The notes below the pieces were generated by a model. The model saw nothing but the letters and a program-made list of their open reading frames with translations. It was not told the DNA's origin and did not search any database. Shown in pieces: positions 1-21,898 of a DNA stretch of 23,117 nucleotides. The position numbers and the translations under genes are program-made. The stretch is from a virus, in the IMG/VR virus record IMGVR_UViG_3300020467_001373, positions 1 to 23,117 of that record, one strand, 5' to 3'. Within the stretch, counting starts at the first letter, position 1, and every line of letters starts with the position of its first letter.

Positions 1-92
1 AAAAGCTTACCACAATATTCTGAGGTATTACATATCCACTTCTCATAACCCCATCCTTTAGGAACAAACTTTATATCAGACGATTCTTTCAA
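1..92 (-). CDS. Probable sugar cupin (mannose-6-phosphate isomerase-like), 5' end only
   Basis: Only the first 30 codons are inside the window; the gene continues past base 1. The frame reads K-F-V-P-K-G-W-G-Y-E-K-W-I and then E-Y-C-G-K-L, which I recognise as the opening strands of small single-domain cupins related to mannose-6-phosphate isomerase type II that sit in phage and bacterial surface-sugar clusters. No ATG is available: an in-frame TAA lies five codons before a TTG at 92-90, and a GGAG (99-102) sits six bases ahead of that TTG. So TTG is the likely start, overlapping the end of the upstream kinase gene by 17 bases. The family call rests on a short N-terminal stretch. The role would be in nucleotide-sugar or sugar-phosphate metabolism with the genes upstream. 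Confidence 0.6.
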   Translation of the reverse strand, partial: MKESSDIKFVPKGWGYEKWICNTSEYCGKL

Positions 93-810
93 TATCTTCT
101 CCGTTTAAAATATATGTACCAGAATGTTGTACAGCAATTGCTGCCGCTTTGTTTCCCAACATAAGAGAATAATCTATATCATTAGTAGTTATATATCCAA
201 ACACTAGAGCAGAAAGAAAAGTATCTCCTGCACCGACTACATCAAAAACCTTTACTTTCTCTGATGGATATAATATATTATTGTATATACACCCTTCAGA
301 TCCTTTTGTTACTATTAAATTTTCTATATTATAATTATCTAGATTCTCATATTCTACATCATTTATCTTAATAAAACAATTAGGTTTGTTAGGAAGTATA
401 GTTTTCTTACTATCAATAAACACAGGACAGGTTGCACTCTCTACAATTTCAAATATCTTTTCTGTGGTTAAATATCCTTTATTATAATCCGATATAACAA
501 CAGCATCAAACCCATCAGTGGAAACAGGAATTAATAAAGGTCTTATCTTTTCCTCATTATCAACCCTAAGTATCTGTTGATTAGATTTCTCATCAATGAA
601 TCTAGTCTTTACTAATTGTTCATTATTAGTTAAGAATGTAATATCAATACCAAATGCTTGTAAGTTTAAACATACATTACCAGCCATACCAGAAGTGGTT
701 TTTATCTTAGCATAATCCAGCACAGGCACAGGTGCTTCTGGACTTATACGAGTACATCTACCATAGATGTACTCATCTTCACAACTATCTCCCAGTAACA
801 GTACTTTCAT
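76..810 (-). CDS. PfkB-family sugar kinase, HldA/RfaE N-domain-like (short form)
   Basis: This 244-aa protein resembles D-glycero-beta-D-manno-heptose-7-phosphate kinase, the N-terminal half of HldE, which phosphorylates heptose-7-phosphate at C1 on the way to ADP-heptose. Visible features: the N-terminal GDS..DEYIYG and R-I-S-P-E-A-P-V-P stretch typical of the family (residues 8-30), an S-G-M-A-G-N substrate loop (40-45), a KTRFID...QQILRVD segment (69-84), and the PfkB signature DVVGAGDTF (190-198) with Asp196 as expected catalytic base. At 244 residues it is clearly shorter than the usual kinase domain (over 300). I chose ATG at 810 because it forms an ATGA overlap with the upstream stop at 807; an in-frame upstream start at 843 would lie deep in the upstream gene. 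Sugar specificity cannot be told from sequence; another hexose/heptose phosphate is possible. Confidence 0.85.
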   Translation of the reverse strand: MKVLLLGDSCEDEYIYGRCTRISPEAPVPVLDYAKIKTTSGMAGNVCLNLQAFGIDITFLTNNEQLVKTRFIDEKSNQQILRVDNEEKIRPLLIPVSTDGFDAVVISDYNKGYLTTEKIFEIVESATCPVFIDSKKTILPNKPNCFIKINDVEYENLDNYNIENLIVTKGSEGCIYNNILYPSEKVKVFDVVGAGDTFLSALVFGYITTNDIDYSLMLGNKAAAIAVQHSGTYILNGEDIERIV

Positions 811-1391
811 CGGTAATCGTAAAAAGAATCTAACATACCACACTGACCAAAAGGCATAAAATTCATTGCTATAGAATACCTAGTTTCTTTATTATTATTA
901 ATTTGGACAGCATGGCTAAGATCACTAGGAAATACCAACATCTCACCGTAATTTGCAGGAAAATTAACATCACCAGACATTACTAAATCAACATCTGTAC
1001 TATTGGATTTTGGATTAATAGATGGATTGCGTTTGCAAAAAGTTATACTTGAATTATCTTTAACACTTTTTGAAAAATAAAAAACTGAACTCCAAGATGA
1101 GTTTGTGTGATAATGTTCTCTTTGACTCTGATACATATTGAGCCTATTAAACCAAGAAGTAGTCATTTTAAATGGAACTTCATATCTAATTTCAGATAAA
1201 CATTCATTTATCTTATCTTCAATTCTTTCAACCAATCCCATATTATACTTAAATAAAATTTTTTGATCGTTAGATATATTATTTCCTTCTTCCCACTTAG
1301 CATACTTAAGAATACTTTCTACATCATCAACTAGATCCATACAATCTACACAATAGACTAATGTTGGAAATATATTAAATCTTCTGTTCAT
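807..1391 (-). CDS. Putative 2OG-Fe(II) oxygenase (PF13759-type)
   Basis: This 194-aa protein has the layout of small phage 2-oxoglutarate/Fe(II) oxygenases (2OG-FeII_Oxy_5). The N-terminal half carries W-F-N-R-L-N (80-85). Next comes H-Y-H-T-N-S-S-W-S-S-V-F-Y (93-105), where the His residues should supply iron ligands. The distal motif G-E-M-L-V-F-P-S-D-L-S-H (149-160) supplies the last His, and Arg171 in R-Y-S-I-A-M-N-F would bind 2-oxoglutarate. Such enzymes hydroxylate proteins, sugars or small molecules; the substrate here is unknown. It overlaps the nucleotidyltransferase upstream by 17 bases and the kinase downstream by 4 (ATGA), so it is translated as part of the sugar operon. That favours a sugar or cell-surface substrate, but a virion-protein substrate (for example the collagen-like fibre) is possible. 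Confidence 0.75.
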   Translation of the reverse strand: MNRRFNIFPTLVYCVDCMDLVDDVESILKYAKWEEGNNISNDQKILFKYNMGLVERIEDKINECLSEIRYEVPFKMTTSWFNRLNMYQSQREHYHTNSSWSSVFYFSKSVKDNSSITFCKRNPSINPKSNSTDVDLVMSGDVNFPANYGEMLVFPSDLSHAVQINNNKETRYSIAMNFMPFGQCGMLDSFYDYR

Positions 1392-1785
1392 TAATCTTTT
1401 TGATTACATTACTACTAGCATATCCTCCCACTCTAGGAAGATGTCTTACCTCACCAGCGTGTTCCCAACCAACTACATCACCATCCCTCCAATCATCACC
1501 AAGTAATAATATATCAGGTTGATATAGTTCAATTAGATCTTCTAACTCTTGTCTACTACCAAAGGTATGGACAACATCAATATACTTAATTGCCTCAAGC
1601 ATAGCAACCCTATAATGAAGATCATTTATAGGGCGATGCTCTCCTTTATCAGTCCGAATCTTCTCATCAGTATCCGTAGCAACTATTACTTTTTCTCCTA
1701 GAGATCTAGCAACTTTGAATAGTTCTATATGACCTGGATGAAGAATATCGAATGTGCCGTTGCACCAAACAATATCATTTTGCAT
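1375..1785 (-). CDS. Cytidylyltransferase-family nucleotidyltransferase, HldC/RfaE C-domain-like
   Basis: This 136-aa protein is a complete single-domain nucleotidyltransferase. It has W-C-N-G-T-F-D-I-L-H-P-G-H (7-19) with the HxGH nucleotide-binding motif at 16-19, the K-V-I-V-A-T-D-T-D strand (32-40), the R-P-I-N-D...R-V-A-M-L segment (51-63), and a late S-S-N-V-I (124-128) where most relatives have a Ser/Thr-rich 'STT.II' motif. Family members join NTP and a sugar-1-phosphate or glycerol phosphate; this one looks most like the ADP-heptose-forming half of HldE. With the kinase at 76-810 it would give the two HldE activities as separate polypeptides. The start overlaps the carbamoyltransferase stop by 11 bases, implying translational coupling. 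Glycerol-3-phosphate cytidylyltransferase is the main alternative. Confidence 0.85.
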   Translation of the reverse strand: MQNDIVWCNGTFDILHPGHIELFKVARSLGEKVIVATDTDEKIRTDKGEHRPINDLHYRVAMLEAIKYIDVVHTFGSRQELEDLIELYQPDILLLGDDWRDGDVVGWEHAGEVRHLPRVGGYASSNVIKKINEQKI

Positions 1786-3625
1786 TAACTAAAAAATCGG
1801 AATTTGACTTTTTATTATCGTCTCTACAATTAGATTCATTCATAACTTCTTTATGTTTAAACTCATAATCATAAACACCATCTGTTAATATAAAATCAAC
1901 CTTTATTAATTTACCTATCTCTGGAAGATACATATAGCTAATCTCACTATAACCCAAACACTCCATTGCATCTTCAAGAGTTTCAACTAAAGGTTGACCA
2001 CCAAGATTAAATGATGTATTAAACAAAATAGGAGTATCAGAAAGTTTTTCAAATGCACTAATCAAATTATAATAATGCTCATTATGATCTTTATCAACTG
2101 TTTGTATTCTACAAGTACCATCTACATGAATTACTGATGGGATCTTTTCTTCAACACCTGGTTGACACTCAACAGCATACATCATATGTGGAGTATCATC
2201 CATTCCAGCAAGATCAAACCAATCATGAACCTTTTCTTTAAGAATTGAACAAGCAAATGGTCTAAAGAACTCTCTATGCTTTACCTTATTAATAATATCC
2301 TTACCATCCTTAATAGTAGGATCAAATAAAATAGATCTATTTCCAAGTGCTCTAGGACCACCTTCTGATTTTCCTTGGAAGATAGTTACAATATTACCTT
2401 CACGAATTACCTTAGCAACATCATCATAAGTTACATCACTAATTTCTATCCTATCATCACCCAAAGATTCTATGTAAGGCAAATACATCTGTGTATTGTA
2501 TTGAGGTCCATAATAAATTGTCTTCTGAGGTTTCATCTCAGAATATTCTCTCTGTTTTTTTAAATACTTATCATAATAAACAGAATAAGCACCACCTATA
2601 CATGTACCTCCATCATGTGATATTGGTTCAACAAAGATATTTAAGTTAGGGAATCGTTGTTTAAATTTATAATTAGCAACACAATTTAATCCATATCCAC
2701 CAGATATAACAATATTTTTCTCACCTGTAATATCTACTGCTTTTTCAATTAGATTGCCAATATAGATTTCACTTGCCTCTTGTATAGCATAAGCTAAATC
2801 TTTTTGATTTTCAGTATATTTGGCATCCTGTTTACCTCTATGAGACTCTTCCTCATCAACACTAAACATACCAGGAAATCTATCACAAATAATGTAAGCA
2901 CCATTTGGATAATTAGGCATAAAAAGATCTCTATTAACCCAACCATCCCTCACAATAGGAGGAAGATTAGGATTGGGTTTTCCATAAGGAGAAAGACCCA
3001 TTAGTTTTCCAGCATCAATAGATTGAAAACCACAATACCTAGTCACAGCTTCATATGCTTTAACTATACCTGGATGTTCAGTAACATATGTTCTTGTATC
3101 TTCATCTATAATATTAAAACCAACAGATTTATCAGTTCCTAAATGCTTATAAACTTGCTCAAATTCAAGAGGTTTCTTTGCTTTAAATATAGTTTCAAAT
3201 TCAAATAAAGTAGATCCATCAAATGAATCTGATTGTAAGAAACTTCCAGCACCATCAGCTATTAAACAAGCAGCAGTATCAAATCCAGAATGCACAAATC
3301 CACAAGCAGCATGCATCTGATGGTGTATAGTATCAATGAAAGTAACATCAAATTGAAACTTACCTCTGGATAATTTTCTCATCCATCCTTTATAAATGTC
3401 CTCTGCAGTCCAATCCGTTTGTGGACCTTCTCTATGTGTATGACAAACCACCAAATGATCTATATGATCAACATAATCAAAAACCTTTGCCAATCCCATA
3501 AGAGGAGTTCCATCCCTCTTAAATCTAGTTAATCTTTCCTCTTCCAGGTAAAAAACAATTTCACCATCAACAAGCAATGTTGTACTAGCATTATGACCAC
3601 GATTACAAGATACAATAATACTCAT
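1775..3625 (-). CDS. Carbamoyltransferase (NodU/CmcH/TobZ family)
   Basis: This 616-aa enzyme has both family domains. The N-terminal Kae1/ASKHA-like domain shows C-N-R-G-H-N-A-S (7-14), the metal-binding H-H-Q-M-H-A (101-106), A-D-G-A-G (123-127), a nucleotide-binding I-S-G-G-Y-G-L-N-C (307-315) and S-H-D-G-G (336-340). The C-terminal YrdC-like domain shows S-E-G-G-P-R-A-L-G-N-R-S-I-L (420-433), R-E-F-F-R-P-F-A (451-458) and F-N-T-S-F-N (535-540). Characterised relatives move carbamoyl from carbamoyl phosphate through carbamoyl-adenylate to a hydroxyl on a sugar or antibiotic. Full length and intact motifs suggest it is active. A GAGGT Shine-Dalgarno precedes the ATG; the gap to the glycosyltransferase stop is 8 bases. 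In this operon the likely substrate is a surface sugar; homologues are known in marine cyanophages. Confidence 0.93.
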   Translation of the reverse strand: MSIIVSCNRGHNASTTLLVDGEIVFYLEEERLTRFKRDGTPLMGLAKVFDYVDHIDHLVVCHTHREGPQTDWTAEDIYKGWMRKLSRGKFQFDVTFIDTIHHQMHAACGFVHSGFDTAACLIADGAGSFLQSDSFDGSTLFEFETIFKAKKPLEFEQVYKHLGTDKSVGFNIIDEDTRTYVTEHPGIVKAYEAVTRYCGFQSIDAGKLMGLSPYGKPNPNLPPIVRDGWVNRDLFMPNYPNGAYIICDRFPGMFSVDEEESHRGKQDAKYTENQKDLAYAIQEASEIYIGNLIEKAVDITGEKNIVISGGYGLNCVANYKFKQRFPNLNIFVEPISHDGGTCIGGAYSVYYDKYLKKQREYSEMKPQKTIYYGPQYNTQMYLPYIESLGDDRIEISDVTYDDVAKVIREGNIVTIFQGKSEGGPRALGNRSILFDPTIKDGKDIINKVKHREFFRPFACSILKEKVHDWFDLAGMDDTPHMMYAVECQPGVEEKIPSVIHVDGTCRIQTVDKDHNEHYYNLISAFEKLSDTPILFNTSFNLGGQPLVETLEDAMECLGYSEISYMYLPEIGKLIKVDFILTDGVYDYEFKHKEVMNESNCRDDNKKSNSDFLVNAK

Positions 3626-3633
3626 AATTTACC

Positions 3634-4800
3634 TCAAGATTTTTTTGATTCTATTTCCAACAATTCATCAATTGGTTTTTTCTTCTTTTTTGTTTTAGTA
3701 ACAAATGGTTTATCATATTTAACTGGTGGAGTCAATATAGATTTAACATTAGAAGAATCCTTTGGATTACTAAAAGAAACAGTTTCCTTTCTATCACCCC
3801 ATTTTGGATTACTCTCTATTAAATCACCCGAAGTGCTACCTCCTTGCTTCTTTACACCTAAAGTATTTGACAGATCTTTTTTACTAACACCAATCTTATT
3901 CTTAATACCCTTTATAATACTATCTACAGTTTTATCTTCTAAAACCATTAGATCCTCATTGGTTCTATCACCACATATATCCATTGTTAATCTAATTGGA
4001 CTATACTTTCTCTTACCTTTACCATTATCAATAATACTAAACTTCTTACTATCAGGATATGATATATTTTCAGGATAAGTAGATCCTATAACAACTGTAG
4101 TAGGTTTATTTAAAGAATATGCCATATGTTGCCCAACACTATCACATCCTAAGAAATAATCAGCAGCATTTATAACACCCATCCAACCATTCAATCCCAT
4201 ATTTTTGGGAGCCGCAATTCCAAGAGATTGCCAACCTGGAATCTCAATGTTTGACATAAGTATAATACCATAATCTTTATTAAGTTTTTCAATTAATTTA
4301 AGAATATTAGCAATTTCAAAACTTCTTCCAGAAGTATCGTAGATAAATTGCCCTTCAACTTTTACACCTTGTCCAAAAGGTTGAAATACAATAACCTTAT
4401 CTTTACCTAAAGTATTCTTTACTTCACCAACTACATTATGTCCGTTAATTTGATCTTCCTTATTAAGATCCAACTTAAGTTCCCTAGTTTCAGGAATCTC
4501 ATCAAGTTCATTAATTTCTATATCAAATGCCTGTATGAGATTACACCTCTGAGTAAAATATTCGTTTACTCTATATGGTTCGGGTGATATAATCTTCTTA
4601 TCTTTTAAATGATCTTCAAATAAATCCTTATGCCCAAGAGGAAAAACTTTTTCTCTCAATACTTTACTATTTAAATATAATTCCGACCAAGACTCTGATA
4701 CTATTATAAAATTATCGTGAGTTTCTGCATACCTTTCTAACGCAGGAATGGAGCACAGCACACGCCCTGCTCCACCGTTAATAAAAAAAGCTTTATTCAT
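3634..4800 (-). CDS. GT9-like glycosyltransferase (heptosyltransferase-like) with basic C-terminal tail
   Basis: This 388-aa protein opens with a Gly-rich nucleotide-sugar loop (F-F-I-N-G-G-A-G-R-V-L, 5-15). Its second Rossmann half carries the signature of family 9 glycosyltransferases: I-N-A-A-D-Y-F-L-G-C-D-S-V-G-Q-H (210-225), then L-N-K-P-T-T-V-V-I-G-S-T-Y-P (230-243). GT9 members such as WaaC/WaaF transfer heptose from ADP-heptose to lipopolysaccharide core. Identity to textbook members looks low, so donor and acceptor are inferred from the HldA/HldC-like neighbours. The fold appears to end near residue 305; residues 305-388 are a polar, low-complexity tail with K-T-K-K-K-K-K (369-375), not a usual GT9 feature. 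It is the first gene of the sugar operon, behind a sigma70-type promoter and a GAGG ribosome site 10 bases before ATG. Confidence 0.75.
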   Translation of the reverse strand: MNKAFFINGGAGRVLCSIPALERYAETHDNFIIVSESWSELYLNSKVLREKVFPLGHKDLFEDHLKDKKIISPEPYRVNEYFTQRCNLIQAFDIEINELDEIPETRELKLDLNKEDQINGHNVVGEVKNTLGKDKVIVFQPFGQGVKVEGQFIYDTSGRSFEIANILKLIEKLNKDYGIILMSNIEIPGWQSLGIAAPKNMGLNGWMGVINAADYFLGCDSVGQHMAYSLNKPTTVVIGSTYPENISYPDSKKFSIIDNGKGKRKYSPIRLTMDICGDRTNEDLMVLEDKTVDSIIKGIKNKIGVSKKDLSNTLGVKKQGGSTSGDLIESNPKWGDRKETVSFSNPKDSSNVKSILTPPVKYDKPFVTKTKKKKKPIDELLEIESKKS

Positions 4801-4883: not shown

Positions 4884-5972
4884 CTACTTCCACTGAACGC
4901 AAACCATACCAAACTTACCAGAATCTCCACATAGACCGTTTCCACCACCCATAGCGTGTGAACCCCATCCACCAGCACCAGCAAATCTTAAACATCCATT
5001 ACCAGTCCAAGCACCACAATTATATCCACAACAGTTTCCACTACTAAAGGTAGGGCAACATATTGTATCAGATTCTGAACCAAGAACTGGAGCGTGTTGT
5101 TCCCAACCATAATGGTTAGTATCCCAACATTGCATCGGCCAAATACCTCTCAATCCGTAGATTGTATTTTCATATTGTGGATTCTCAATATCCTTTATAG
5201 ATCCGTGATATCCAGCACCAGAAATATAAGGTATACAATTAAAGGTTTCACCAGTAAAACACCAGTCACCACCATAGTTACATATTCTTGCACCTTGGTT
5301 ATCATTAGTTAAAGCAGCAATTCTACAAGTACAGTAATTACCTCTCATAGCATTCCAAGTACCTAGTGATCCTTGACCACCATCAGCACAGAAATTTTCC
5401 AATTTACAACCTTGAACATAAGAAGGGCATCCACTCCATCTCTGAGATCCAGATGTAGTATATGCATAACAACAATAAGCACATCCACCACAAAGTGTAT
5501 ATGTCCAACCACTTTGTACTGGAATAATTACAGATGCCCATGCACCTGTTGATCCAAATGGAGTATGACCACAACAGCAAGGAGCTTTATTTGCTCCACC
5601 ACCAGCACCCCAAATCTGGAATCGAGCACAAGTTGCACCACTTGGAACACTCCAAGTACAACTAGAACCACAACGATAATATCCTTGAGAATCACAAACC
5701 TCTATACCATCAGTCCAACCCGTTCCTTCATAAGGTTTCCATAAACTTGTTTCACCAGGACAAGCCCATATTTTTTTCTCAAAATTGTCACTATCAGGGC
5801 AGAACCATGCCTTAGCACAAATTTCTGCATTTACATCATAACTTCCACCACCGCCGCTACCTGATTCAGGTTGTTTATTTTCTTTAAGATCAAATAAACA
5901 CTGCTGCTTTTCGTGAATTTCTTTTTTTAGTGCTGCTTGTTCATTTAAAGCACTGTATACCAATACATCCAT
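4884..5972 (-). CDS. Cysteine-rich Gly-rich virion/adhesin-like protein, copy 2
   Basis: This 362-aa protein contains 32 cysteines (about 9%), including C-C-C (132-134) and L-C-G-G-C-A-Y-C-C-Y (160-169). Order: a short helical N-terminus starting D-V-L-V-Y-S-A-L-N-E (2-11), a Gly/Ser linker (37-44), then a W-S-V-P-S-G-A-T-C-A-R-F-Q-I-W-G-A-G-G-G core (107-126), Gly/Cys-rich loops, and a terminal strand G-M-V-C-V-Q-W. It is a paralogue of the gene at 6710-7801, with the core at the same residue positions. The core also parallels the Cys-poor Gly-rich proteins upstream (W-x-A-P-x-G-V-T-S-V ... terminal A-V-R-I-I-W), so I read it as the same beta-rich adhesin fold stabilised by disulfides or metal. 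No enzyme motif is seen. Translation is coupled: AGGAGGT (5982-5988) lies in the upstream gene's last codons and the stop abuts the ATG. Function is unknown; a virion role is inferred from context. Confidence 0.8.
   Translation of the reverse strand: MDVLVYSALNEQAALKKEIHEKQQCLFDLKENKQPESGSGGGGSYDVNAEICAKAWFCPDSDNFEKKIWACPGETSLWKPYEGTGWTDGIEVCDSQGYYRCGSSCTWSVPSGATCARFQIWGAGGGANKAPCCCGHTPFGSTGAWASVIIPVQSGWTYTLCGGCAYCCYAYTTSGSQRWSGCPSYVQGCKLENFCADGGQGSLGTWNAMRGNYCTCRIAALTNDNQGARICNYGGDWCFTGETFNCIPYISGAGYHGSIKDIENPQYENTIYGLRGIWPMQCWDTNHYGWEQHAPVLGSESDTICCPTFSSGNCCGYNCGAWTGNGCLRFAGAGGWGSHAMGGGNGLCGDSGKFGMVCVQWK
5595..5634. repeat. 40-bp perfect repeat, copy A (shared by the two Cys-rich genes)
   Basis: Forty consecutive bases identical to 7424-7463, encoding the C-A-R-F-Q-I-W-G-A-G-G-G core of both Cys-rich proteins. 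The flanking DNA is clearly diverged, so the identity suggests recent duplication, gene conversion or strong constraint at this point. Confidence 0.9.
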
Positions 5973-6659
5973 TTAAACACCACCTCCTGCAATACCAGAA
6001 CCAGAAACTTTATTAATTTCAACTTGAACATCAATAGGAATCTTTGGTGTGGATCCTACTGCATCTGGAATAGTAATATACTTCCAAGTTTTATAATCAG
6101 GATTATTACCAAGGAACGTATCAATAGCAGAAAGATAAGTAGTTATCTTAGTATTCATATCAGTTCCAAAGTCATACATATCAGCATAAGTTTTAATATA
6201 ATCCCTATTTTTCTTAGCAGCATCAGCATGTAGATTTTCTTGTACTTTTACAATCTGAACTAATTGCCAAGAACTAGTAGTAAAATTCCACTTCGCATCG
6301 TAAGCATCTTTTAAATCAGGATTATCAATCTTCTTATATACATCACCATTAGATTGAACTTCATCGGTATAAGTATAATCCCACTGATAGTTCTCATGGA
6401 ATTGATGAGAACAAACATATGCTATAGGTAATTGAGAACTGTCTTTAGCATTAACAGTCTTTCTTATATCAGCACCTGCCTCATTTGGTGGATCTACCGT
6501 AACACCAATACTTGTTATATCACCACTTTGTGGATTTATCCATACATCAAATTCTTCAGGTCCAGTATATGTGTAACTACCACTAATGTTAGTCGAAATA
6601 CCAGCAACGAATAGCTCAGTTGGAAGTAGATGAGTAAACGATGATGTAATGTTTGCCAT
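5973..6659 (-). CDS. Unrecognised protein between the Cys-rich genes (possible virion or tail-fibre accessory)
   Basis: I do not recognise this 228-aa protein. It starts MANITSSF, has a Ser/Thr-rich N-terminal beta-type region (about 1-110, with Y-T-G-P-E-E-F-D-V-W-I) and a more helical, charged middle (about 115-190, with D-L-K-D-A-Y-D-A-K-W and W-Q-L-V-Q-I-V-K-V-Q-E). It ends in a short A-G-G-G-V tail whose codons double as the ribosome site of the next gene. There is one cysteine, unlike its neighbours, and no signal peptide or membrane segment. Its position between two Cys-rich paralogues, behind its own late promoter (6692-6699), suggests a structural protein or a helper for them. The leader is A-rich (GTAAAAAACAATGG), without a clear Shine-Dalgarno. 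Confidence 0.75.
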   Translation of the reverse strand: MANITSSFTHLLPTELFVAGISTNISGSYTYTGPEEFDVWINPQSGDITSIGVTVDPPNEAGADIRKTVNAKDSSQLPIAYVCSHQFHENYQWDYTYTDEVQSNGDVYKKIDNPDLKDAYDAKWNFTTSSWQLVQIVKVQENLHADAAKKNRDYIKTYADMYDFGTDMNTKITTYLSAIDTFLGNNPDYKTWKYITIPDAVGSTPKIPIDVQVEINKVSGSGIAGGGV

Positions 6660-6691
6660 TGTTTTTTACAGTTCTCTGATTTTTCTTTAGT

Positions 6692-6699
6692 TATTTATA
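6692..6699 (-). promoter_or_regulatory. T4-type late promoter, TATAAATA
   Basis: Exact match to the T4 late -10 octamer on the minus strand, in the 50-bp gap before the gene starting at 6659. The distance to that ATG is 32 bases, leaving a short leader. Sliding-clamp-activated late transcription by a gp55-like sigma would use it. Confidence 0.65.
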
Positions 6700-6702
6700 A
6701 GG

Positions 6703-6728
6703 ATGTGTATCACATATAGGATACACAT
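6703..6728 (-). repeat. Inverted repeat across the stop codon of the Cys-rich copy 1 gene
   Basis: ATGTGTATC (6703-6711) and GATACACAT (6720-6728) form a perfect 9-bp stem with an 8-base loop spanning the TGA stop at 6710-6712. The late octamer begins three bases beyond it. No T-run follows, so it is a possible transcript-end or mRNA-stabilising hairpin rather than a textbook terminator. Confidence 0.45.
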
Positions 6729-7801
6729 ACCATTCCAGTTTTACCAATATCAGCACATCCATTAGTATCTCCACCGCAAGTTGAGTAACCCCATGCACCA
6801 GCACCAGGAATACAGCACATTGCTTGACAATAACACGCTTGATAGCAACATCCACCATTTTCATTACTCATACATGCACCGCAGCAAGAGCAATCTGCGA
6901 ATCCATACATACCAGGATGCTTATGACATGCTTGATCAGTACCATAATCATAAGCAAAGTATGACCATTGTCCAGGTAATCCGTATATCGTAGAACCAGC
7001 ACTTACAGTACCATAATGCTTTTTACAATTTGCAGTAGATTGATAACTTGCTTCTCTTCTACTTTCTGGATATCCAACACCAGGTGTCTCTGCTTGTTGA
7101 GAACAATAATCGGTTCCACTATTACAAATACAAGATCCCATATATTTACAAGCACTTTGCTCGCTAGGTCCTCTCAAACATCTATTTTTAGCTTCACAGA
7201 ATAGACTAGATTCACCACCTTCAGCACAGAAGTTAGTTAATCCAGGTCCTTGAACATATGATGGATTTCCACCAACAGTCATCTGTGACCTAGTTGTATA
7301 ACAACAGTAAGCACAACCAGCACAAAGAGTATATTGTTCTCCAGAAGTTACAGGCATAATAACAGATGCATATGCACCAGATCCACCATTAGGTGCTCCA
7401 CCACAACAACAACCAGTTCCTGATCCACCACCAGCACCCCAAATCTGGAATCGAGCACAAGTTATACCACCTGGAACAGTCCATTGACAGCAACAACCAC
7501 ATCTATGATACTGGGAAGTATCACAAACCTGAAATCCACCAGTCCAACTAGTTTGACCTTCAGCAAATCGAGGAATCATACAAGAAAGACCAAGATTAGG
7601 TGATCCAGCACCCTTCATTATTTCCTGAAGTCCAGCAGCACCCTCGGAAGCTGCAGGAGGTGGTCCTGGAGGACCTCCAGATCCTCCACCACATATGTCT
7701 TCTAATGCTAAAGTAATCGCAGATGTCAATCCTACAGATTCAGCTCGAAGTTCTTGGTTTATTTCTGCCAGAGCATTATATGTTAATACGTCTGCTGCCA
7801 T
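6710..7801 (-). CDS. Cysteine-rich Gly-rich virion/adhesin-like protein, copy 1
   Basis: This 363-aa protein contains 37 cysteines (about 10%), with many CC and CCC runs: C-G-C-C-C (101-105), C-C-C-G-G (131-135), L-C-A-G-C-A-Y-C-C-Y (159-168) and a dense C-terminal cluster. The N-terminus (A-D-V-L-T-Y-N-A-L-A-E) and the core W-T-V-P-G-G-I-T-C-A-R-F-Q-I-W-G-A-G-G-G (107-126) match the 4884-5972 paralogue. A G/P-rich hinge (38-50, with P-P-G-P-P-P) separates the head. The terminal strand G-M-V-C-V-S-Y corresponds to A-V-R-I-I-W in the Cys-poor Gly-rich proteins. Cysteines are dispersed through Gly-rich loops, not in regular zinc-finger or ferredoxin spacing, so disulfide cross-linking after lysis seems likeliest; metal binding is the alternative. 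The ATG has GAGGT about 9 bases upstream. No match to a characterised family is claimed. Confidence 0.8.
   Translation of the reverse strand: MAADVLTYNALAEINQELRAESVGLTSAITLALEDICGGGSGGPPGPPPAASEGAAGLQEIMKGAGSPNLGLSCMIPRFAEGQTSWTGGFQVCDTSQYHRCGCCCQWTVPGGITCARFQIWGAGGGSGTGCCCGGAPNGGSGAYASVIMPVTSGEQYTLCAGCAYCCYTTRSQMTVGGNPSYVQGPGLTNFCAEGGESSLFCEAKNRCLRGPSEQSACKYMGSCICNSGTDYCSQQAETPGVGYPESRREASYQSTANCKKHYGTVSAGSTIYGLPGQWSYFAYDYGTDQACHKHPGMYGFADCSCCGACMSNENGGCCYQACYCQAMCCIPGAGAWGYSTCGGDTNGCADIGKTGMVCVSYM
7424..7463. repeat. 40-bp perfect repeat, copy B (shared by the two Cys-rich genes)
   Basis: Identical over 40 bases to 5595-5634, in the same orientation and encoding the same core of the paralogous protein. 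It is long enough to serve as a recombination site between the two genes. Confidence 0.9.
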
Positions 7802-8201: not shown

Positions 8202-8221
8202 TTATTGGCAATTACCAATAA
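8202..8221 (-). repeat. Inverted repeat at the stop codon of the 1459-aa fibre gene
   Basis: TTATTGG (8202-8208) and CCAATAA (8215-8221) form a 7-bp stem with a 6-base loop that starts exactly at the stop codon. The late promoter lies 8 bases downstream. There is no T-tract; this is a candidate mRNA 3' hairpin at the unit boundary. Confidence 0.4.
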
Positions 8222-11200
8222 AGAATTCAGAGATTTGAACGTTCCTAGCAACCTCATTACTATTTTGTGTAATAGTTGCATTAACAGTTCCAATACCAGC
8301 AGTAAGATGACTTATTGCTGTATTCAATGCTGTTGCTATACCAGCCTGAGTATGTGCTCTCTCAGTAGATAATCCCAAAGCAGTATGAGATTGTGCTTGT
8401 AGTAGTTTAGCAGCTCCTTCAGTCTCAACATAAGTTCTAACTGCAGCCTGTGTTGGCACTTTCTCATTACTGTTTTGTGCCATTGTTCCGTCAGTTGAGA
8501 ACTCATTAACTTGAGCACCTAACTGAGCACCGATAGAACCCAATCGAATTGAGGTCAAACCAGATAGATCGAAACTATTTGCATTCAATGTTGCAGCACC
8601 AGTTGCCTGGTTTACACGGAAGTACTTACCAACCCTAAAGTTTCCTTGTTCATCAGTAGAAACATAGAATACCCTACCTGGGAAATCTTCTGTAATCTCC
8701 TGTGTCTGAACAGGGTCTTGTATTGGTGCTGATGGCCAGTTAGTTGTGGATGTTCCACCAGTTCCTACTTGTAAGAAGTCATGTCCAGTTAATCTTGCCT
8801 GACTAAAGATGTAACGAATCTTGATATCCTGTTGATCATATGCTTTAGCAGGTTTTTCTTCAACCAAAATTACTTGTGTAGTACCGTAAGTATCAGTAGT
8901 AACACCAGTAACTTTCATAAACTCATCATCAAACTTCATATAAGCACCAACAACATCCTCAAATCTTTGAGATAATGTTGCTCTGAATGAAGTGTCAGAA
9001 GCAGTGAAGTCTTTCAAAACTTCAGCAGCACTAACAAAACTAGTTGCACCAATTGAAGTAAATTGTGTTCCAATTGGCCATCCTTGTGCTGTATTAGCAC
9101 CATCTTGTTCTCTAATAACCTCCATTGAGTTTGCAGTTGGGAAACTAACAACCTTACATAATTCATTTGTTGGTGATAAGCAATACTCACCAGGGTTAAA
9201 TCCACTAATAGTACTAACACTAAATGTAGTATCACTTTGAGTTGCTGGAGTTAGTAGTGTGAAAGATCCTGTTTGAATTGGATATTTAATAAAGGTTGTA
9301 GATCCACCAGTATGAGCAGCACCAGCAGTAGTCCATTGTCCCCTATCAATCGAAACATTACCTTTTCCAACAGGTCCAGTTTGACTTACATTAGAAATCA
9401 CAAATGTAAATGGATCTGCACCACTAATATTATCACTATTATATCCACCATTACCAGATCCAGTAATAAACTCAATACTACCATTAACTTCAAGAGTTGG
9501 TGAAGTTCCTAATCCAGAAAGAACAAGTATTCTTCCACTTTGTCCTTCGTTTGCACTTGGATTATTAATAAGATTAGCAGTTGTGCCTGAAGTTTGTGCA
9601 GTGATTGTTTCACCAGGAGCAAATCCTGTACCAACTCCAACAGCACCTTCACTAATTATTGAATAGAAAATCCTATTTAAAGTAGTTCCTTGAACCGTAT
9701 GAATATAACCCCAAGCTTCAGAAGTATTACCTCTGATTCTTTCTCCTACTTGGAATCCAGGTCCTACCTGAGTATCAACATCAATTGTAAGTACTAAACC
9801 TTCAATAACACCTTCTCTTGCTTTTTCAATTGGACTGAATCCAGAACTTACAACACCATACTTACCCCATGAACTGTTTCCAACAAGAGATCTAAGTCTT
9901 CCACCACGAGTAGCAGCATAACTTATATGGTTATAATATGTAAAACAAGAAACTGTTTCTGCCACAGCACCATCTGTGATCCAGAATGCCATTCCTTCAT
10001 CGTGAATGTTTGTAAATGAGTCAAACACGATAGATTTGTTAGAAGGTGTCGATGATCCATCTATAAATTGTCTATGAACTCCACCGTCTACAATTGCACC
10101 AACACCTTTAGTTGATTTTGCAGAACAGTTTGATACATATGGAGATTTAATAACTCTACTTGATGGATTTAATGCAACAAACACACCTTTAATATGTGCA
10201 TTATTAGGATCATATTGATTTGCAGTAAATGTTAATGCAGTTGCACCAAGATTTTGTTGTTTATCAACCTCTATCTGAGTACCACTAATAAATCCACTAA
10301 CCTTTGTTCCAGTTGAAACACCAGCACCAGTTACTGTTGTACCAACTAAATCTGGAAATAAATCAGTACCAGTAACTATTGATCCACTAATACTACAAGT
10401 TTTAGTTGCGACTGTACCTGCTGGAGTAAATCCAGTAAGACCTTCCATCAAAATATCCTTAAGCATCGTTGCGTTGCTTAACTGGAACATTGTTGAATGT
10501 TCGTTAGGTCTAGTCTCAACTGCAGTAATTGTTATATCTGATACACCATTTTCCCAAGTATCTGATGTCGTCCATTCTCCACCAGCAATATTATAGATCT
10601 GTATTTTCTTCTCAGCGTAATCTGAATCTAAAACAACAGCCCACTTATCTCCAGCACCAGTTCTTATTGATGATCCATAGGAAACATAAGGAGATGCTTT
10701 CTGAATCGAACCAGCACCACCAGATACAAAATTATGTACCGATGTATCTGTAACAGCACCTTGTCCACCATTAACATTTACAGTAATACTATCTGCAGTT
10801 ACAGCAGTAATTGGTAAATCAGTATCATATGCATAATCAGCACCATCTGATGTAGCAGCACCAGATGCTCTTGGATATGTCTTCTGAGTTGTATTACCAT
10901 CACCATTATAGTCACAAGTAAATATTAAAGAATTTGCACTAATCCTAATACTATCATAAATTGTTAAAGTATGATCTCCAATAGTCACAACCATATCACC
11001 AGTTGTTGGATTATAATTAATCGCACTTGGTGTATAAGTTGCAGAAGGTGCAGATGCTAATGTTATATCTTGATGCTTAGATGCATTACCTTTACCAACA
11101 TTAACTGTAATTGTTGTACCTGTTGTTGCAGTGATAGGAAGAGTTGCACCAAATGCAGGATCTTTTGCTCTTGGATACTTATGCTGAGTAGCATGATTAT

Positions 11201-12581
11201 CCTGATCACAAGTAAATGTTAATGTACCATTTCCAATTGTAATTGTATTACCAGTAGTTAAACTATGAGTTCCAATTTCTAATACAAGATTTCCTGTTGT
11301 AGAATCGTAAGTTGTTCCACTTGCAGGTGTAACTGAGCTACCAGCATTAGGAGTGACTGCATCAATAGCAGCAGATACAAAAGTATGTGCGTAATGTGTA
11401 GCAGGCTTAATCTTAGATGTTCTTAAGTTATCACCAACTATAGAAACAGTATCTGGAACTACAATTGGAAGTTGTTCTGCGTAATTTCCAGCCTTTACAT
11501 AGATGGATGCTGGACCTTCTGCAACAGAACAAGCATGTCTAATAGAATGAAATGCTCTACTAATGTTTGAACCATCATTTTCATCGCTTCCTTCTTCTGT
11601 TACATAATAAACTGGATGCGTTACACTATTATTTTCCCATCCAGGAATTCCAGTTGGACTTACTGTTAATGTTTGTCCATTACTTCCTACAGGTAATCTT
11701 GCAGCACCTGTTGTATAGTAAACAAGGTCACCTTGGGTGGTCATCACATTGTTTGCTGCACCCTCAGCCAACATACTCCAATAAAGACCAGCACTATCTG
11801 TTGAAGGGTCTTGATTTAAACTACCAGCAGTAGCAACACCAATATAACTATTACTTAATCTCTTTACAGCATCACCTAACTGATAAGTTACTGTTGAATC
11901 CCAATTACCTTTCCAAGCAACACCTTTAGTTACTAAACTCCAATTAGAACTATTTGTTGCAGGTGTACTATTTGTACTAGTAGTGATAGCAACATAAGAA
12001 TATCCACCATATAATGCTAAATCACCTTGCTTATAATCTGTCGAAGAATCCCAAGTACCAACTACATTAAATCCAGTAGTTATAATATCCCAATCATTTG
12101 TTAGATTGTATGAAGGTGGTTTATTAACATGAACACTCTTTGCAACATAAGTATAACCACCATATGTTACAACATCTCCATCCTGATACTGTGTTGCAGC
12201 ATCCCAAGTATCTTCAAAGTTAAATGACTGTAAGTACTCAGTTGCATGAGCAATAGTATCTGCTTCACTAAATGAACCAGATGAAGTATGTCCAGAAGTT
12301 ACACGATATAGAGTATTACCATATTTGTATACATCATTTATCTTATACCATTGCCCACCAGTCCAATTACCTTTTTGAGCAAGACCCTCAGTATGTAAAG
12401 TCCAATTATCAGTTATATCCAGAGAGTAAAAAGAAGTTTCAGAATCAGCAGATGTGTGATTCTTTTTACAGACGTAAGTATTAGCACCATATTTTATGAT
12501 GTCGTCAATGACATAGGCAGTCGTAGTTTGCCAATCGCCACGCCAATTAAATTTTAATCTGCCAAGTCTAAATTCAGCCAT
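8202..12581 (-). CDS. Giant tail-fibre-like virion protein with carbohydrate-binding-like repeats and beta-helix
   Basis: At 1459 aa this is the largest gene. Residues about 12-275 hold five ~50-residue repeats of W....Y..GD.V.YG...Y (for example W-D-A-A-T-Q-Y-Q-D-G-D-V-V-T-Y-G-G-Y, 126-143), close to CBM5/12 chitin-binding-type modules. Residues 283-316 carry a G-D-L-V-Y...P-G-W hinge. Residues about 324-395 (Y-Y-V-T-E-E-G-S-D-E-N-D-G, I-Y-V-K-A-G-N-Y-A-E) are the usual opening of a right-handed beta-helix. Two tandem repeats follow (about 425-500 and 523-606), each with TG....G.H.LT, FTCD, YPRA, LPIT and ITVNV. A beta-helix-like stretch continues to about 900, and a fibre-type C-terminus ends in a helical segment. 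The role is probably tail-fibre or baseplate-attached receptor binding. The ATG follows an A-rich leader (AAGAAAAAACAATGG) with no strong Shine-Dalgarno, 16 bases after the preceding stop. Fold assignments are by eye. Confidence 0.85.
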   Translation of the reverse strand: MAEFRLGRLKFNWRGDWQTTTAYVIDDIIKYGANTYVCKKNHTSADSETSFYSLDITDNWTLHTEGLAQKGNWTGGQWYKINDVYKYGNTLYRVTSGHTSSGSFSEADTIAHATEYLQSFNFEDTWDAATQYQDGDVVTYGGYTYVAKSVHVNKPPSYNLTNDWDIITTGFNVVGTWDSSTDYKQGDLALYGGYSYVAITTSTNSTPATNSSNWSLVTKGVAWKGNWDSTVTYQLGDAVKRLSNSYIGVATAGSLNQDPSTDSAGLYWSMLAEGAANNVMTTQGDLVYYTTGAARLPVGSNGQTLTVSPTGIPGWENNSVTHPVYYVTEEGSDENDGSNISRAFHSIRHACSVAEGPASIYVKAGNYAEQLPIVVPDTVSIVGDNLRTSKIKPATHYAHTFVSAAIDAVTPNAGSSVTPASGTTYDSTTGNLVLEIGTHSLTTGNTITIGNGTLTFTCDQDNHATQHKYPRAKDPAFGATLPITATTGTTITVNVGKGNASKHQDITLASAPSATYTPSAINYNPTTGDMVVTIGDHTLTIYDSIRISANSLIFTCDYNGDGNTTQKTYPRASGAATSDGADYAYDTDLPITAVTADSITVNVNGGQGAVTDTSVHNFVSGGAGSIQKASPYVSYGSSIRTGAGDKWAVVLDSDYAEKKIQIYNIAGGEWTTSDTWENGVSDITITAVETRPNEHSTMFQLSNATMLKDILMEGLTGFTPAGTVATKTCSISGSIVTGTDLFPDLVGTTVTGAGVSTGTKVSGFISGTQIEVDKQQNLGATALTFTANQYDPNNAHIKGVFVALNPSSRVIKSPYVSNCSAKSTKGVGAIVDGGVHRQFIDGSSTPSNKSIVFDSFTNIHDEGMAFWITDGAVAETVSCFTYYNHISYAATRGGRLRSLVGNSSWGKYGVVSSGFSPIEKAREGVIEGLVLTIDVDTQVGPGFQVGERIRGNTSEAWGYIHTVQGTTLNRIFYSIISEGAVGVGTGFAPGETITAQTSGTTANLINNPSANEGQSGRILVLSGLGTSPTLEVNGSIEFITGSGNGGYNSDNISGADPFTFVISNVSQTGPVGKGNVSIDRGQWTTAGAAHTGGSTTFIKYPIQTGSFTLLTPATQSDTTFSVSTISGFNPGEYCLSPTNELCKVVSFPTANSMEVIREQDGANTAQGWPIGTQFTSIGATSFVSAAEVLKDFTASDTSFRATLSQRFEDVVGAYMKFDDEFMKVTGVTTDTYGTTQVILVEEKPAKAYDQQDIKIRYIFSQARLTGHDFLQVGTGGTSTTNWPSAPIQDPVQTQEITEDFPGRVFYVSTDEQGNFRVGKYFRVNQATGAATLNANSFDLSGLTSIRLGSIGAQLGAQVNEFSTDGTMAQNSNEKVPTQAAVRTYVETEGAAKLLQAQSHTALGLSTERAHTQAGIATALNTAISHLTAGIGTVNATITQNSNEVARNVQISEFFIGNCQ

Positions 12582-13816: not shown

Positions 13817-15574
13817 TTAAACATCTGTAGTATTTGTTGAAGGGAATGCTCTTCCAGGACCCCATATAATTCTTACAGCACCTTTACCACCATTACCACC
13901 AAGGTTAGTAGGAGTGTTTTGCGGTCCACTACCAGTACCACCTGCACCTCCACCATAGTCTCCACCAGGACCACCAGTCACAGCGTTATAATAATTAGTA
14001 CCATCATCTAATGGAACTGTTCCATTTGTACCATTATCTCCACCTGATCCTCCTCCACCACCAAGCATGGTTCCACCATTAGTGTTATTAATTGGAGAAT
14101 TAGAACCACTCGCACCTTCACCTAGAATTCCTACTCCACCACCACCAGCACCACCACCAACTAAACCATTAGCAGAACCCCATCCACCAGCACCACCAGT
14201 TTCGCTATTACCATCTCCAGAATATCCACCAGCTCCACCGCCTCCACCATATGTCCGATGATCACCTCCATTACCACCACCATCACCTACAAAATCTCCA
14301 CCAGCTTTATCACTTCCACCTCCTCCACCACCTTTAACAGTAGTCGCATTTACAAAATATGAATCTCCACCATCAGTTCCACCAGAAGTATTTTGAGTTC
14401 CTCCATCACCAACTACTACAGTATAAGATTGTCCTGGTGTTACTGAAATATTATTCTTCCATCCAAGTCCACCGCCTCCACCTGCTTTAAAATCACCTTC
14501 TTCTCCACCACCGCCACCACCAACTGCAACAACAGAAACATCATAAACATTAGCAGGTGCTGTCCAACTATATGTTCCTGGTGTAGTATATGCCTGTTGA
14601 CCACTAACAGTTGTTGTATTACTAGTCATATCTGCTGTGTTTGTTGATGGGAATGCTCTTCCTGCACCCCATATAATTCTTACTGCTCCACCAGCAGAAG
14701 TTCCTACAGGTCCACCATCACCATAAGATCCAGCACCTCCACCATAATTTCCACCATCTCCTCCATCAGAAACATTTGTGCCACCACCATCAGAACCACC
14801 AGATCCACCACCTCCCATAGGAGTTGGATTACTACTATTATAAGTGTACTTAGTTCCACCAGTTCCATCAGCACCTTGTCCCAATAATCCTACACCACCA
14901 CCTCCAGCAGATCCTTTTCCAGCACCACCAGCTCCACCGCCACCGCCACCTTGACCAGGATTACCTAATCCACCTTGAGGTCCGTAACCATTTGGAGCAC
15001 TTTGTAATTGATAAGAAGATCCTCCTTTACCACCAGTTCCACCAGCACCTACATATCCACCAGCTCCACCGCCACCTCCAGCACCAGCACCGTAAGGATC
15101 GTAAGTCCATGGACCTCCACCCTGTCCACCATTACCACCACCATCTCCTACATAATTTCCACCATACGTTTGGTAACTACCAGTTCCACTATTATTAAGC
15201 CAACCACTACCACCTTTAACAGTGTTCTTGCTTATAAAATATGAATCTCCTGGTCCTTCATAATAAGTACTTCCTTGCCCAGATTGCCAAGGAGCACTGT
15301 TAGTATTATTAGGTTCTCCCACCTGTACAGTATAAGATTGACCTGGTGTTACTGTAATATTATTTTTCCATCCAAGTCCACCACCAGCATTTCCAGAAAA
15401 ACCACCAGGACCACCTGAACCCATACCAGATCCACCAGCACCAACAGCAACTACACAAACAGAGGTAACTCCATTAGGTGCAATCCAAGTATATGTTCCT
15501 GGTGTTGTATATTCTTGCTGTCCTACTACATCTACAGTTGTAACTGCTGATAGTAACATCTGTTGAATTGACAT
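13817..15574 (-). CDS. Duplicated Gly-rich adhesin-like virion protein
   Basis: This 585-aa protein is two tandem copies of one Gly-rich domain (about 18-318 and 325-585). Each unit opens G-Q-Q-x-Y-T-T-P-G-T-Y-x-W-x-A-P, passes through V-V-A-V-G-x-G-G-G, then G-L-G-W-K-N-N-I-x-V-T-P-G-Q-S-Y-T-V. It then holds long loops dominated by GG, GGG and GAGG and closes with A-V-R-I-I-W-G-x-G-R-A-F-P-S-T-N-T. The Gly-rich loops recall the polyglycine-II loops of T-even gp38-type adhesins, so a distal receptor-binding role is a reasonable inference. Unit boundaries share near-identical DNA (about 13831-13882 and 14639-14690), showing internal duplication. The ATG lies one base after the cupredoxin-like gene's stop. 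No enzyme motif. Confidence 0.8.
   Translation of the reverse strand: MSIQQMLLSAVTTVDVVGQQEYTTPGTYTWIAPNGVTSVCVVAVGAGGSGMGSGGPGGFSGNAGGGLGWKNNITVTPGQSYTVQVGEPNNTNSAPWQSGQGSTYYEGPGDSYFISKNTVKGGSGWLNNSGTGSYQTYGGNYVGDGGGNGGQGGGPWTYDPYGAGAGGGGGAGGYVGAGGTGGKGGSSYQLQSAPNGYGPQGGLGNPGQGGGGGGAGGAGKGSAGGGGVGLLGQGADGTGGTKYTYNSSNPTPMGGGGSGGSDGGGTNVSDGGDGGNYGGGAGSYGDGGPVGTSAGGAVRIIWGAGRAFPSTNTADMTSNTTTVSGQQAYTTPGTYSWTAPANVYDVSVVAVGGGGGGEEGDFKAGGGGGLGWKNNISVTPGQSYTVVVGDGGTQNTSGGTDGGDSYFVNATTVKGGGGGGSDKAGGDFVGDGGGNGGDHRTYGGGGGAGGYSGDGNSETGGAGGWGSANGLVGGGAGGGGVGILGEGASGSNSPINNTNGGTMLGGGGGSGGDNGTNGTVPLDDGTNYYNAVTGGPGGDYGGGAGGTGSGPQNTPTNLGGNGGKGAVRIIWGPGRAFPSTNTTDV
13831..13882. repeat. Direct repeat encoding the A-V-R-I-I-W-G..R-A-F-P-S end, copy A
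   Basis: Nearly the same DNA recurs at 14639-14690 in the same gene, sharing GGGAATGCTCTTCC and CCCCATATAATTCTTAC. A looser form occurs near 16585-16640 and 18570-18610 in the two upstream Gly-rich genes. Confidence 0.75.
14639..14690. repeat. Direct repeat encoding the A-V-R-I-I-W-G..R-A-F-P-S end, copy B
   Basis: The partner of 13831-13882; it marks the boundary between the two Gly-rich domains of the 585-aa protein. Confidence 0.75.
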
Positions 15575-20046: not shown

Positions 20047-21898
20047 TAGATACAGAAACCCCCTCAAGACTTACACCAACCATAGACGCTTTCCCATTGT
20101 TGCAGAAAGGATTATATAATATTCTTCTTGGAGAACTCTTCAAACTATAAGTATTGCTCCAATAATTTGAAGTATTACTATCTTGATAAGGGTCATAAAA
20201 TTCTGAAGTATCAACTTCTACAGAACCATGAGTCAATAACCAATTTCTAGCCTCTACTCTAGTTGCATTTGGTTGCGACTCCATATACAATGCCATCACA
20301 CCAGCAACTTGTGGAGATGCCATACTAGTCCCACTTATAGCATAATTATCAAAATTAGGATTTCTTGGATCAGCATAACCAACACTATATGGACTGAGAA
20401 TATGTGATCCTCCAGCCCATACATCAATATTTGGTCCCCTACAACTAAAATTAGAACATCTTTCTTGAGATCCTGTCTGCCTTGCAGAATCTATAGCACC
20501 AACAACTATAGCAGCATCAGGTTGACCCTGTTTAGTTACAGCAGGTGTTCCAGATCTATTATAATGACTATCATAAGTATTTTGAGCATAATAAAAAGTA
20601 CCCGTTAAGAATTCATTTTCATAATCCTCACCTTGCATATAATCTTGCTTATCGTCAGAATTACCTGCAGCGAAAACCCATACAATATCTTGACAATCAG
20701 GATCATTGAAAGCTTCATTTGCTTCTTCCTGACCAGCTATTTGTGTAGCAGTAAATTGTTTATAACCCTCATTTAACATTGACATGTAGTTTATAGCTGG
20801 TGCAACACTACTACTTACCTGTGTATTATCAACTTGAGTACCCCTATATGTTGCAGTATAAGGTTGTTGAGATGCAATGAATTGTCTATGACCCCAACTA
20901 CCATTAACAACTGTAGGATTTCTTCTTCCAGTTTCTGGATTAATTGGTTTATTTTTATGCCATATTCTAATATAATCAAATCCAGAAGAAGGACTTGACC
21001 ATCCACAATCACCTCTATCAACACAAGCAATAGACCATATGTTTGATTCAAACGCATGACCAAATTGATTTCCTGCAACAGTTCCAGCAACGTGACTACC
21101 ATGCCAACTAATACTCCAAGGATAAGAAGTATATCCTTTTTCATGCAATAATGCAGATTCAACTTTATAATTTCCCAATGCTCCTGATCCAGCAGCATCT
21201 AGTCCATAGGAAGACCAATTAATACCATATTCAGATGCACCGTGAATCAATATATCTCTAACTCTAGTTTCACTTTCACAAGCAAGATTATTTTGAACTT
21301 GAGTTATTTTTCCTAATAAAAATTCTGGATGATCCCAACGAACTCCAGTATCCATTATAACAACATCAACATTCTTTCCACTTAAAGTATATTGACTATC
21401 TGAAGATACTATAGTATTCGCATTAAAATTATTTGTCCTTGACGAATGGCGAAGAATACCCCACTGAGTAAAATCAAGTGCTGCAGTACCTGGATTGCCA
21501 CCACCCGATACTGATAATCTTCTATTCTGACATAGGAACTTATATCTATTAGTCATAAGATGACTATCAAATTCCTGATCATAAACCCTTTGTTTTAACG
21601 GTACTTCATTAAACAAAGTGGATCTTTCTACCCAATCTATTTTAGGATGATTTTTTAAAACATCAGCTTCAAGTGGAGATATTTCATAAACACTCCTTTT
21701 AGTAGAACACTGCATCTCGGAAGTACAGTCTATTCTTCTATTTGGTATATTGTCTATTTCATTTTCATTAATAATATAATCGTGTATCTCTACCCAATCA
21801 GAAGGATCCTTTACACAAACAGTATATGGTTGAACATCATTGTCACTTGTAGTAACAATAACTCTACCAGTATTAGCATCGATAGATGTAGAAATCAT
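20039..21898 (-). CDS. Subtilisin-like serine protease (S8 family)
   Basis: This 619-aa protein contains a complete catalytic set: Asp183 in [13 protein letters not shown], His266 in [12 protein letters not shown], oxyanion Asn413 in F-A-A-G-N-S-D-D, and Ser525 in [12 protein letters not shown]. Residues about 25-125 ([11 protein letters not shown]...W-V-E-R) look like a propeptide/inhibitor region, and 585-619 form a short tail. There is no signal peptide, so the protease is presumably packaged in or on the virion or acts in the infected cell. Translational coupling on both sides (ATGA at 21895-21898 with the collagen-like fibre; ATGGGTAG with the adhesin) places it in a structural transcript. 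Substrates could be neighbouring fibres (maturation), itself, or host surface proteins. An active enzyme is likely from motif integrity. Confidence 0.95.

Follow-up and report, generated by a model that had tools for sequence, protein, structure and literature searches.

Cysteine-dense tail-tip proteins of cyanophages accompany a glycosyltransferase: a candidate viral S-linked glycosylation system

In glycocins such as sublancin, cysteine is glycosylated by a specialised enzyme whose gene adjoins that of the substrate. We consider here a possible viral counterpart, centred on two cysteine-dense proteins, A and B, encoded in a 23,117-nucleotide stretch of viral DNA (IMG/VR record IMGVR_UViG_3300020467_001373, positions 1 to 23,117; hereafter, the window) together with a chaperone-like gene, a glycosyltransferase (GT) and further sugar genes. 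Whereas a glycocin is a small bacteriocin with one modified cysteine and a GT2-type enzyme, the proteins described here are structural, carry 20–50 cysteines and are accompanied by a GT9-like enzyme. Functionally analogous are the TibC/TibA and Aah/AIDA-I systems, in which a heptosyltransferase with a WaaC-like GT-B fold heavily modifies an adhesin; the acceptor there is serine, with an iron finger and a dodecamer, whereas the putative substrate here is a cysteine-dense phage tip (PMC4358343). Our working model, drawn by analogy, is a TibC/TibA-like system in which cysteine replaces serine (PMC4358343).

Cyanobacteria are among the Earth's most abundant photosynthesisers, and it is the tail tip that decides which of them a phage can infect. 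The gp24 fibre of cyanophage Pam3 resembles the tip proteins in its N-terminal helix, its TNF-like and Gly-rich body and its adjoining chaperone gene (PDB 7YPX; PMC9608196), and the Pam3 chaperone gp25 combines a β domain with a helical domain (PMC9608196), as the window chaperone is predicted to do. Pam3 has a single fibre gene and a homotrimeric fibre with a polyglycine II lattice, whereas two or three paralogous tips are encoded per phage here; the Pam3 paper (PMC9608196) makes no mention of cysteine, in contrast to the 6–12% cysteine of the tips, which have a GT and a carbamoyltransferase nearby. The sugar genes of P-SSM2 and S-SSM7 have been described as cyanophage “LPS gene clusters” (LPS, lipopolysaccharide), with their use considered unknown or the genes possible stuffer DNA; the word cysteine is absent from that paper, which draws no tie to cysteine-rich proteins (PMC3037559). 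With the association reported below, the purpose of these genes becomes testable. We found no paper on cysteine-rich cyanophage tail proteins in the open-access literature, where all our literature searches were made.

A reading of the window made from the sequence alone had described two paralogues with 37 and 32 cysteines and CCC runs in cysteine-poor surroundings. Both open reading frames (ORFs) are confirmed, with two CCC runs in protein A and one in protein B, and the proteins share 41% identity over the core. The neighbouring genes are indeed poor in cysteine, with 1 in 228 residues between the pair, 4 in 388 in the next gene and 0 in 106 in the upstream gene. Both proteins match phrog_35878, with E of 1e-128 or lower, and phrog_4205 less strongly. 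Neither family carries an assigned function, which, with the lack of any paper on such proteins in the open-access literature, agrees with the earlier statement that no such family has been characterised. A and B are 62–64% identical to PSSM2_304 and PSSM2_306 of Prochlorococcus phage P-SSM2, in whose complete genome a 150-residue stretch with at least 7% cysteine occurs in these two orthologues only, among 170 ORFs of at least 150 residues. The cysteine density of the pair is not a matter of chance.

Tip relatives collected by profile number 288 unique sequences, all with 6–12% cysteine, and nine Gly-rich relatives collected alongside have 0–1%. Scans of viral contigs with the tips gave 44 and 18 loci, to which the S-CAM1 and S-SSM7 types added 7 and 79 more; the whole-family alignment was too diverse for such scans. 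Where 3.5 kb or more of downstream sequence is available, the GT lies within 3.5 kb of the tips in every case (126 of 126 tip loci). We also searched in the reverse direction, with GT sequences alone and no reference to cysteine, because two single-cell virus records, AG-345-O18 and AG-345-P14, showed dense proteins before the GT (758 residues with 73 cysteines, 290 with 31 and 282 with 26) that have no Pfam or PHROG match. The gene order in AG-345-O18 is the 758-residue protein, the 290-residue protein, a PF16778 chaperone, the GT and the carbamoyltransferase. Among the 123 loci whose available upstream sequence exceeds 2.5 kb, 114 have a protein with at least 6% cysteine within 4.5 kb upstream of the GT. 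In 62 of these 114 loci, the dense protein is unmatched by Gly-rich profiles and falls outside the Gly-rich cysteine families. A carbamoyltransferase homologue is found in every GT locus (121/121) that extends 5.5 kb or more downstream. Once cysteine and glycine are masked, the dense proteins form about 32 sequence clusters, and most of the non-Gly-rich ones are 235–1156 residues long with up to 145 cysteines. Two dense groups have weak PF21722 matches and may be remote Gly-rich relatives, so that “unrelated” is meant here by sequence only.

Nine GT loci lacked a dense neighbour. For four of them the rest of the contig could be inspected, and it encodes three dense tips of the Gly-rich type in each case. 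The other five comprise one short contig, one protein with 5.6% cysteine and three distant Vibrio-phage GTs; in the one of these three that was examined, the GT adjoins a tail protein with an 8.7% cysteine stretch. GT relatives of at least 35% identity occur in 23 records of the phage collection, compared with about 458 phoH-bearing cyanophage records. The 23 records stem from P-SSM2, P-SSM5, S-SSM7, S-SSM6a, S-CAM1, S-CAM3 and Sf-FS3 and from four single-cell virus records, and all belong to phages with cysteine-dense proteins, as judged by tblastn or inspection. P-SSM2 has exactly two cysteine-dense genes and S-CAM1 three, plus a 154-residue ORF on the strand opposite its tips, and the whole genomes of P-SSM4, S-RIM44, ACG-2014d and S-RIM8 have neither the GT nor a cysteine-dense gene. 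The few cysteine-dense ORFs flagged in these GT-less control genomes were rejected, as they overlap longer ORFs or lie antisense to annotated genes, which in S-RIM8 are those for helicase, gp23 and a head protein. Since the GT accompanies dense proteins across sequence families, even where the genes are unlinked, cysteine density appears to track the sugar pathway and not one fold. Even if cysteine is not the acceptor, a composition that follows an enzyme across sequence families is an unusual signal and a helpful one in predicting substrates.

More distant GT relatives, at 25–29% identity, occur in Aeromonas phage HJ05 and in Vibrio phages, where the neighbouring tail protein has a 9–11% cysteine stretch. 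These GT9-like genes are perhaps a separate instance of the link between GT and cysteine; viral contigs searched with the Aeromonas GT yielded no relatives. These cases, in Vibrio phages (Schitoviridae SBP1 and its relatives) and in Aeromonas phages, are found at L156 7733-10510, L292 7729-12660 and L291 5309-6988. Prokaryote genomes yielded no tip relatives and four GT relatives, all beside a tip-chaperone-GT cassette. Three GTDB contigs (L382, L383 and L384), filed as metagenome-assembled genomes of Gammaproteobacteria, Neomarinimicrobiota and Euryarchaeota, carry the whole cassette with the carbamoyltransferase; the cassette contigs in these bins look like phage contigs. On two contigs (L206 6995-11629 and L231 6995-11620), the GT and carbamoyltransferase lie away from the tips, dense tips being found elsewhere on the contig, and their neighbours are a NUDIX-like gene and two nearly cysteine-free proteins of 490–500 residues.

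The family is also found in P-SSM2, S-SSM7, S-CAM1, S-CAM3 and Sf-FS3, labelled there as “hypothetical proteins”. Three cassette types share one place, between the long tail-fibre gene and the sugar cluster: tip-chaperone-tip-GT in the window and P-SSM2, tip-tip-tip-chaperone-GT in S-SSM7 and Sf-FS3, and a second three-tip type in S-CAM1 and S-CAM3. Cassette positions correspond to largely separate lineages in a tree of 138 tips, with 14 label changes (minimum possible 7, shuffled mean 88); the paralogues are therefore old and have been maintained together, which suggests a hetero-oligomeric tip. Photosystem genes (PF00124) in long contigs of the family and the named isolates point to cyanobacteria as hosts. 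Two contigs (L041 and L044) encode dense tips with up to 51 cysteines, followed by two consecutive GT9-like genes.

As for the fold, the earlier reading had proposed a Gly-rich adhesin scaffold, the core of the pair being alignable to Gly-rich proteins encoded in their own cassette. Profile-profile alignment (hhalign) of the tips with the window Gly-rich proteins covers 81 core columns (E 4.7e-7, probability 92.6, score 55.7), far above the scores of 10–15 obtained with reversed or column-shuffled controls. The window pair itself has no Pfam match, and 10 of 71 family members match PF21722 (Gly_rich_2) at E up to 0.1, the best at 5e-6. Over nearly the whole profile, for which the Pfam cut-off is 24.3 bits, the third tip scores 40.4 bits in S-CAM1 (25 cysteines) and 33.9 bits in S-CAM3 (24 cysteines). 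An AlphaFold2 model of protein A (predicted template modelling score 0.77) has an N-terminal helix at residues 5–37, and Foldseek matched it to phage proteins with Gly-rich domains (E to 3.7e-8), the Pam3 cyanophage fibre (7ypx, the best PDB match, E 1.5e-4), a mycobacteriophage tail tip and the ALK glycine-rich domain, all with moderate TM-scores of 0.30–0.45. Structure prediction and profile comparison thus both point to the Gly-rich fold, and a PF21722, TNF-like fold of the tips is supported by profiles, Pfam and structure search alike. Gly_rich_2 tail proteins, for example that at window 13817-15574, share the W-x-P-x-G-V-T, GGG and VTPG-x-x-Y core with the tips. Their last strand reads GAVRIIW and that of the tips GMVCVSY, with relatives bridging the two (GMIRISYK, GVVRITYV), but they contain 0–1% cysteine, unlike the tips.

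The protein encoded between A and B is called here a divergent tail assembly chaperone on the grounds of profile similarity. The window protein has no direct Pfam match. Alignment of its family with that of the protein at the equivalent place in S-SSM7 and Sf-FS3, members of which carry PF16778 Phage_tail_APC (5e-11, 1e-9), extends over 192 columns with E 4.7e-12 and a probability of 97.6; the reversed control scored 13.8. Its model (predicted local distance difference test 93.8) has an N-terminal β domain and C-terminal helices. An assignment as a gp25-like chaperone by structure was rejected, as Foldseek against the PDB gave nothing at E below 0.07 and gp25 was unmatched.

The tip fold, the relationship of the chaperone and the co-occurrence of cysteine density, GT and carbamoyltransferase, established by sequence or structure comparison, frame the mechanism we favour. 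A and B would be subunits of the tail-fibre tip of a cyanophage, with the Gly-rich/TNF-like fold, and the chaperone encoded between them would help them to fold. The two HldE halves would supply a nucleotide-activated, heptose-type sugar, which the GT9-like enzyme would move onto many tip cysteines (S-linked) in the reducing cytoplasm of the host, and the NodU/NolO-like enzyme would carbamoylate the tip-bound sugar. The tip, as it meets the host surface, would then bear a dense coat of small glycans. We infer that the GT acts on the tip, with cysteine as acceptor and heptose as the sugar, and that the tip is hetero-oligomeric. S-linked glycosylation of the tip cysteines by the GT of the neighbouring pathway has, in our judgement, an even chance of being correct. 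The wider proposal, of a viral S-linked glycosylation system in which GT and carbamoyltransferase sugar-coat tens of cysteines on adhesins of several unrelated folds, is more tentative and falls a little short of even; as part of it, cysteine density would be the acceptor signature and the tip fold would be exchangeable. If cysteine is the acceptor, the system would represent dense S-glycosylation of a viral protein and a new enzyme class.

The main rival is a disulfide-hardened tip, in which cysteines kept reduced in the cytoplasm would, once the cell has lysed, oxidise to a dense network of disulfides that links subunits in part, while the GT would glycosylate other tip residues (Ser, Thr or Asn) or serve elsewhere. 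Disulfides often add stability to extracellular structures, and a glutaredoxin gene lies about 8 kb away in P-SSM2. The distribution of the cysteines bears on this rival in both directions. A few cysteine columns gain and lose cysteine together, such as 319/342 with a phi of 0.69, a value uncorrected for ancestry and not used as proof. About half of the cysteines in the window-type family stand in columns without a cysteine majority, although the total stays high, and even numbers of cysteines are not in excess over odd ones (45 even/40 odd and 101 even/90 odd). Because the positions drift and the even and odd counts are about equal, strict pairing is not evident. Sites that have lost cysteine carry K, R, W, Y, N or G, as expected of exposed positions, and not A, V, L or S; small or aliphatic residues would be usual at buried sites. 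A disulfide network leaves unexplained why cysteine density is linked to GT and carbamoyltransferase across sequence families, unlinked loci included. Something in these phages requires cysteine-rich tips together with a GT and a carbamoyltransferase, whatever the tip sequence, and the simplest reading is that the sugar goes on cysteine. This reading agrees with modification of reduced thiols by a cytoplasmic enzyme, with the drifting positions, with the parity and with the exposed-type replacements. The scaffold proposed by the sequence-only reading is supported, whereas the disulfide or metal-thiolate network that it placed on this scaffold is hypothetical and explains less. We regard disulfide hardening as unlikely on its own, at perhaps one chance in four; it could possibly coexist with S-glycosylation.

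Several observations weigh against S-glycosylation. The S-type family has 23 cysteine columns that are at least 80% conserved, with 24.4 of 27.1 cysteines in majority columns, which disulfides would explain too. There is no fixed local sequon around the cysteines, weak preferences at most being seen. The GT is only weakly GT9-like by Pfam and NCBIfam, and has no PDB sequence match at E up to 10. Heptose genes lie near the GT in part of the loci (HldE halves in 87/121 and 83/121, GmhA in 30/121), and therefore the sugar may differ. The loci are related and not independent, and the counts ignore phylogeny. We found no paper on S-glycosylated phage proteins in the open-access literature, and the sugar on the tip is itself a predicted modification.

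Alternatively, the GT and carbamoyltransferase could alter the host surface, LPS or another glycan, with dense tips that recognise such hosts and cysteines that serve folding. The cluster was earlier read as LPS genes of unknown purpose (PMC3037559), and heptose-activating genes adjoin the GT and carbamoyltransferase. This account gives no reason for cysteine density in several sequence families, and the tips lie with the chaperone and the GT in a single compact cassette. The LPS of marine Synechococcus WH8102 and CC9311 contains no heptose (PMC4515613), so that any phage heptose pathway in these hosts would have to serve some other target, though phage-driven addition is possible. We consider an altered host surface improbable.

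Hitchhiking, that is, tips, chaperone and sugar genes forming one host-range cassette without functional dependence, with cysteine as a lineage peculiarity, would suit the adjacency of the genes in most loci and the relatedness of many of the phages, but about 32 sequence clusters of dense proteins accompany one GT, unlinked cases keep both tips and GT (4/4 testable) and tail proteins with 9–11% cysteine stretches also neighbour the more distant GTs of Aeromonas phage HJ05 and the Vibrio phages, which makes it very unlikely. A metal-thiolate tip, whose clusters would bind Zn, Cu or Fe while in the cytoplasm, in the manner of metallothioneins or multi-zinc proteins, seems the least probable, for although conservation among the cysteines is highest in the CxxCxxCC and CCC clusters and histidine is mildly enriched at +1 and +3, half of the cysteines in the window-type family lie outside conserved columns, the link to the GT is left unexplained, and Pfam, PDB sequence and Foldseek searches matched the tips to no metal-protein, metallothionein, zinc-cluster or disulfide family.

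The features of the window are listed in Table 1. The GT is conserved across aligned loci. It scores 17.9 bits with PF01075, for which the cut-off is 22, compared with 23.9 (3.1e-5) for the homologue at locus L036 and 25.4 for a Vibrio homologue, and it has a weak NCBIfam match to heptosyltransferase III. No match to autotransporter heptosyltransferases (BAHT) was obtained in NCBIfam at E up to 0.1 or among PDB sequences. Within this cassette, the unannotated cyanophage genes of PHROGs 35878, 4205, 9740 and 8954 gain a common context.

Table 1. Features of the tip cassette and the adjoining sugar genes in the window
Feature	Length (aa)	Cys	Position	Strand	Basis
Cys-dense tail-tip protein A	363	37	6710..7801	-	phrog_35878; orthologue of PSSM2_304
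Cys-dense tail-tip protein B, paralogue of A	362	32	4884..5972	-	orthologue of PSSM2_306
Divergent tail-fibre assembly chaperone	228	1	5973..6659	-	phrog_9740; profile-profile
Long tail fibre protein, upstream of tip cassette	1459		8202..12581	-	phrog_9851 tail fiber protein, E 0
GT9/heptosyltransferase-like glycosyltransferase	388		3634..4800	-	phrog_8954; PF01075 0.002, below Pfam cut-off
NodU/NolO-type O-carbamoyltransferase	616		1775..3625	-	NF041651 E 2.8e-38
HldE-type heptose-1-phosphate adenylyltransferase half	136		1375..1785	-	TIGR02199 9.5e-31, below its cut-off
2OG-Fe(II) oxygenase-like protein, sugar cluster	194		807..1391	-	TIGR02466 1.8e-13, below its cut-off
HldE-type heptose-7-phosphate kinase half	255		76..843	-	TIGR02198 2.5e-42, below its cut-off

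At the other end of the window, a collagen-like protein with GPP/GPA repeats (21895-23115, minus strand) runs past the end of the contig. Beside it, within the tail-fibre cassette, a 619-residue protein with subtilisin-like (S8) motifs is encoded at 20039-21898 on the minus strand; its P-SSM2 counterpart, PSSM2_297, is annotated as PF00082, and a protease among tail genes is unusual.

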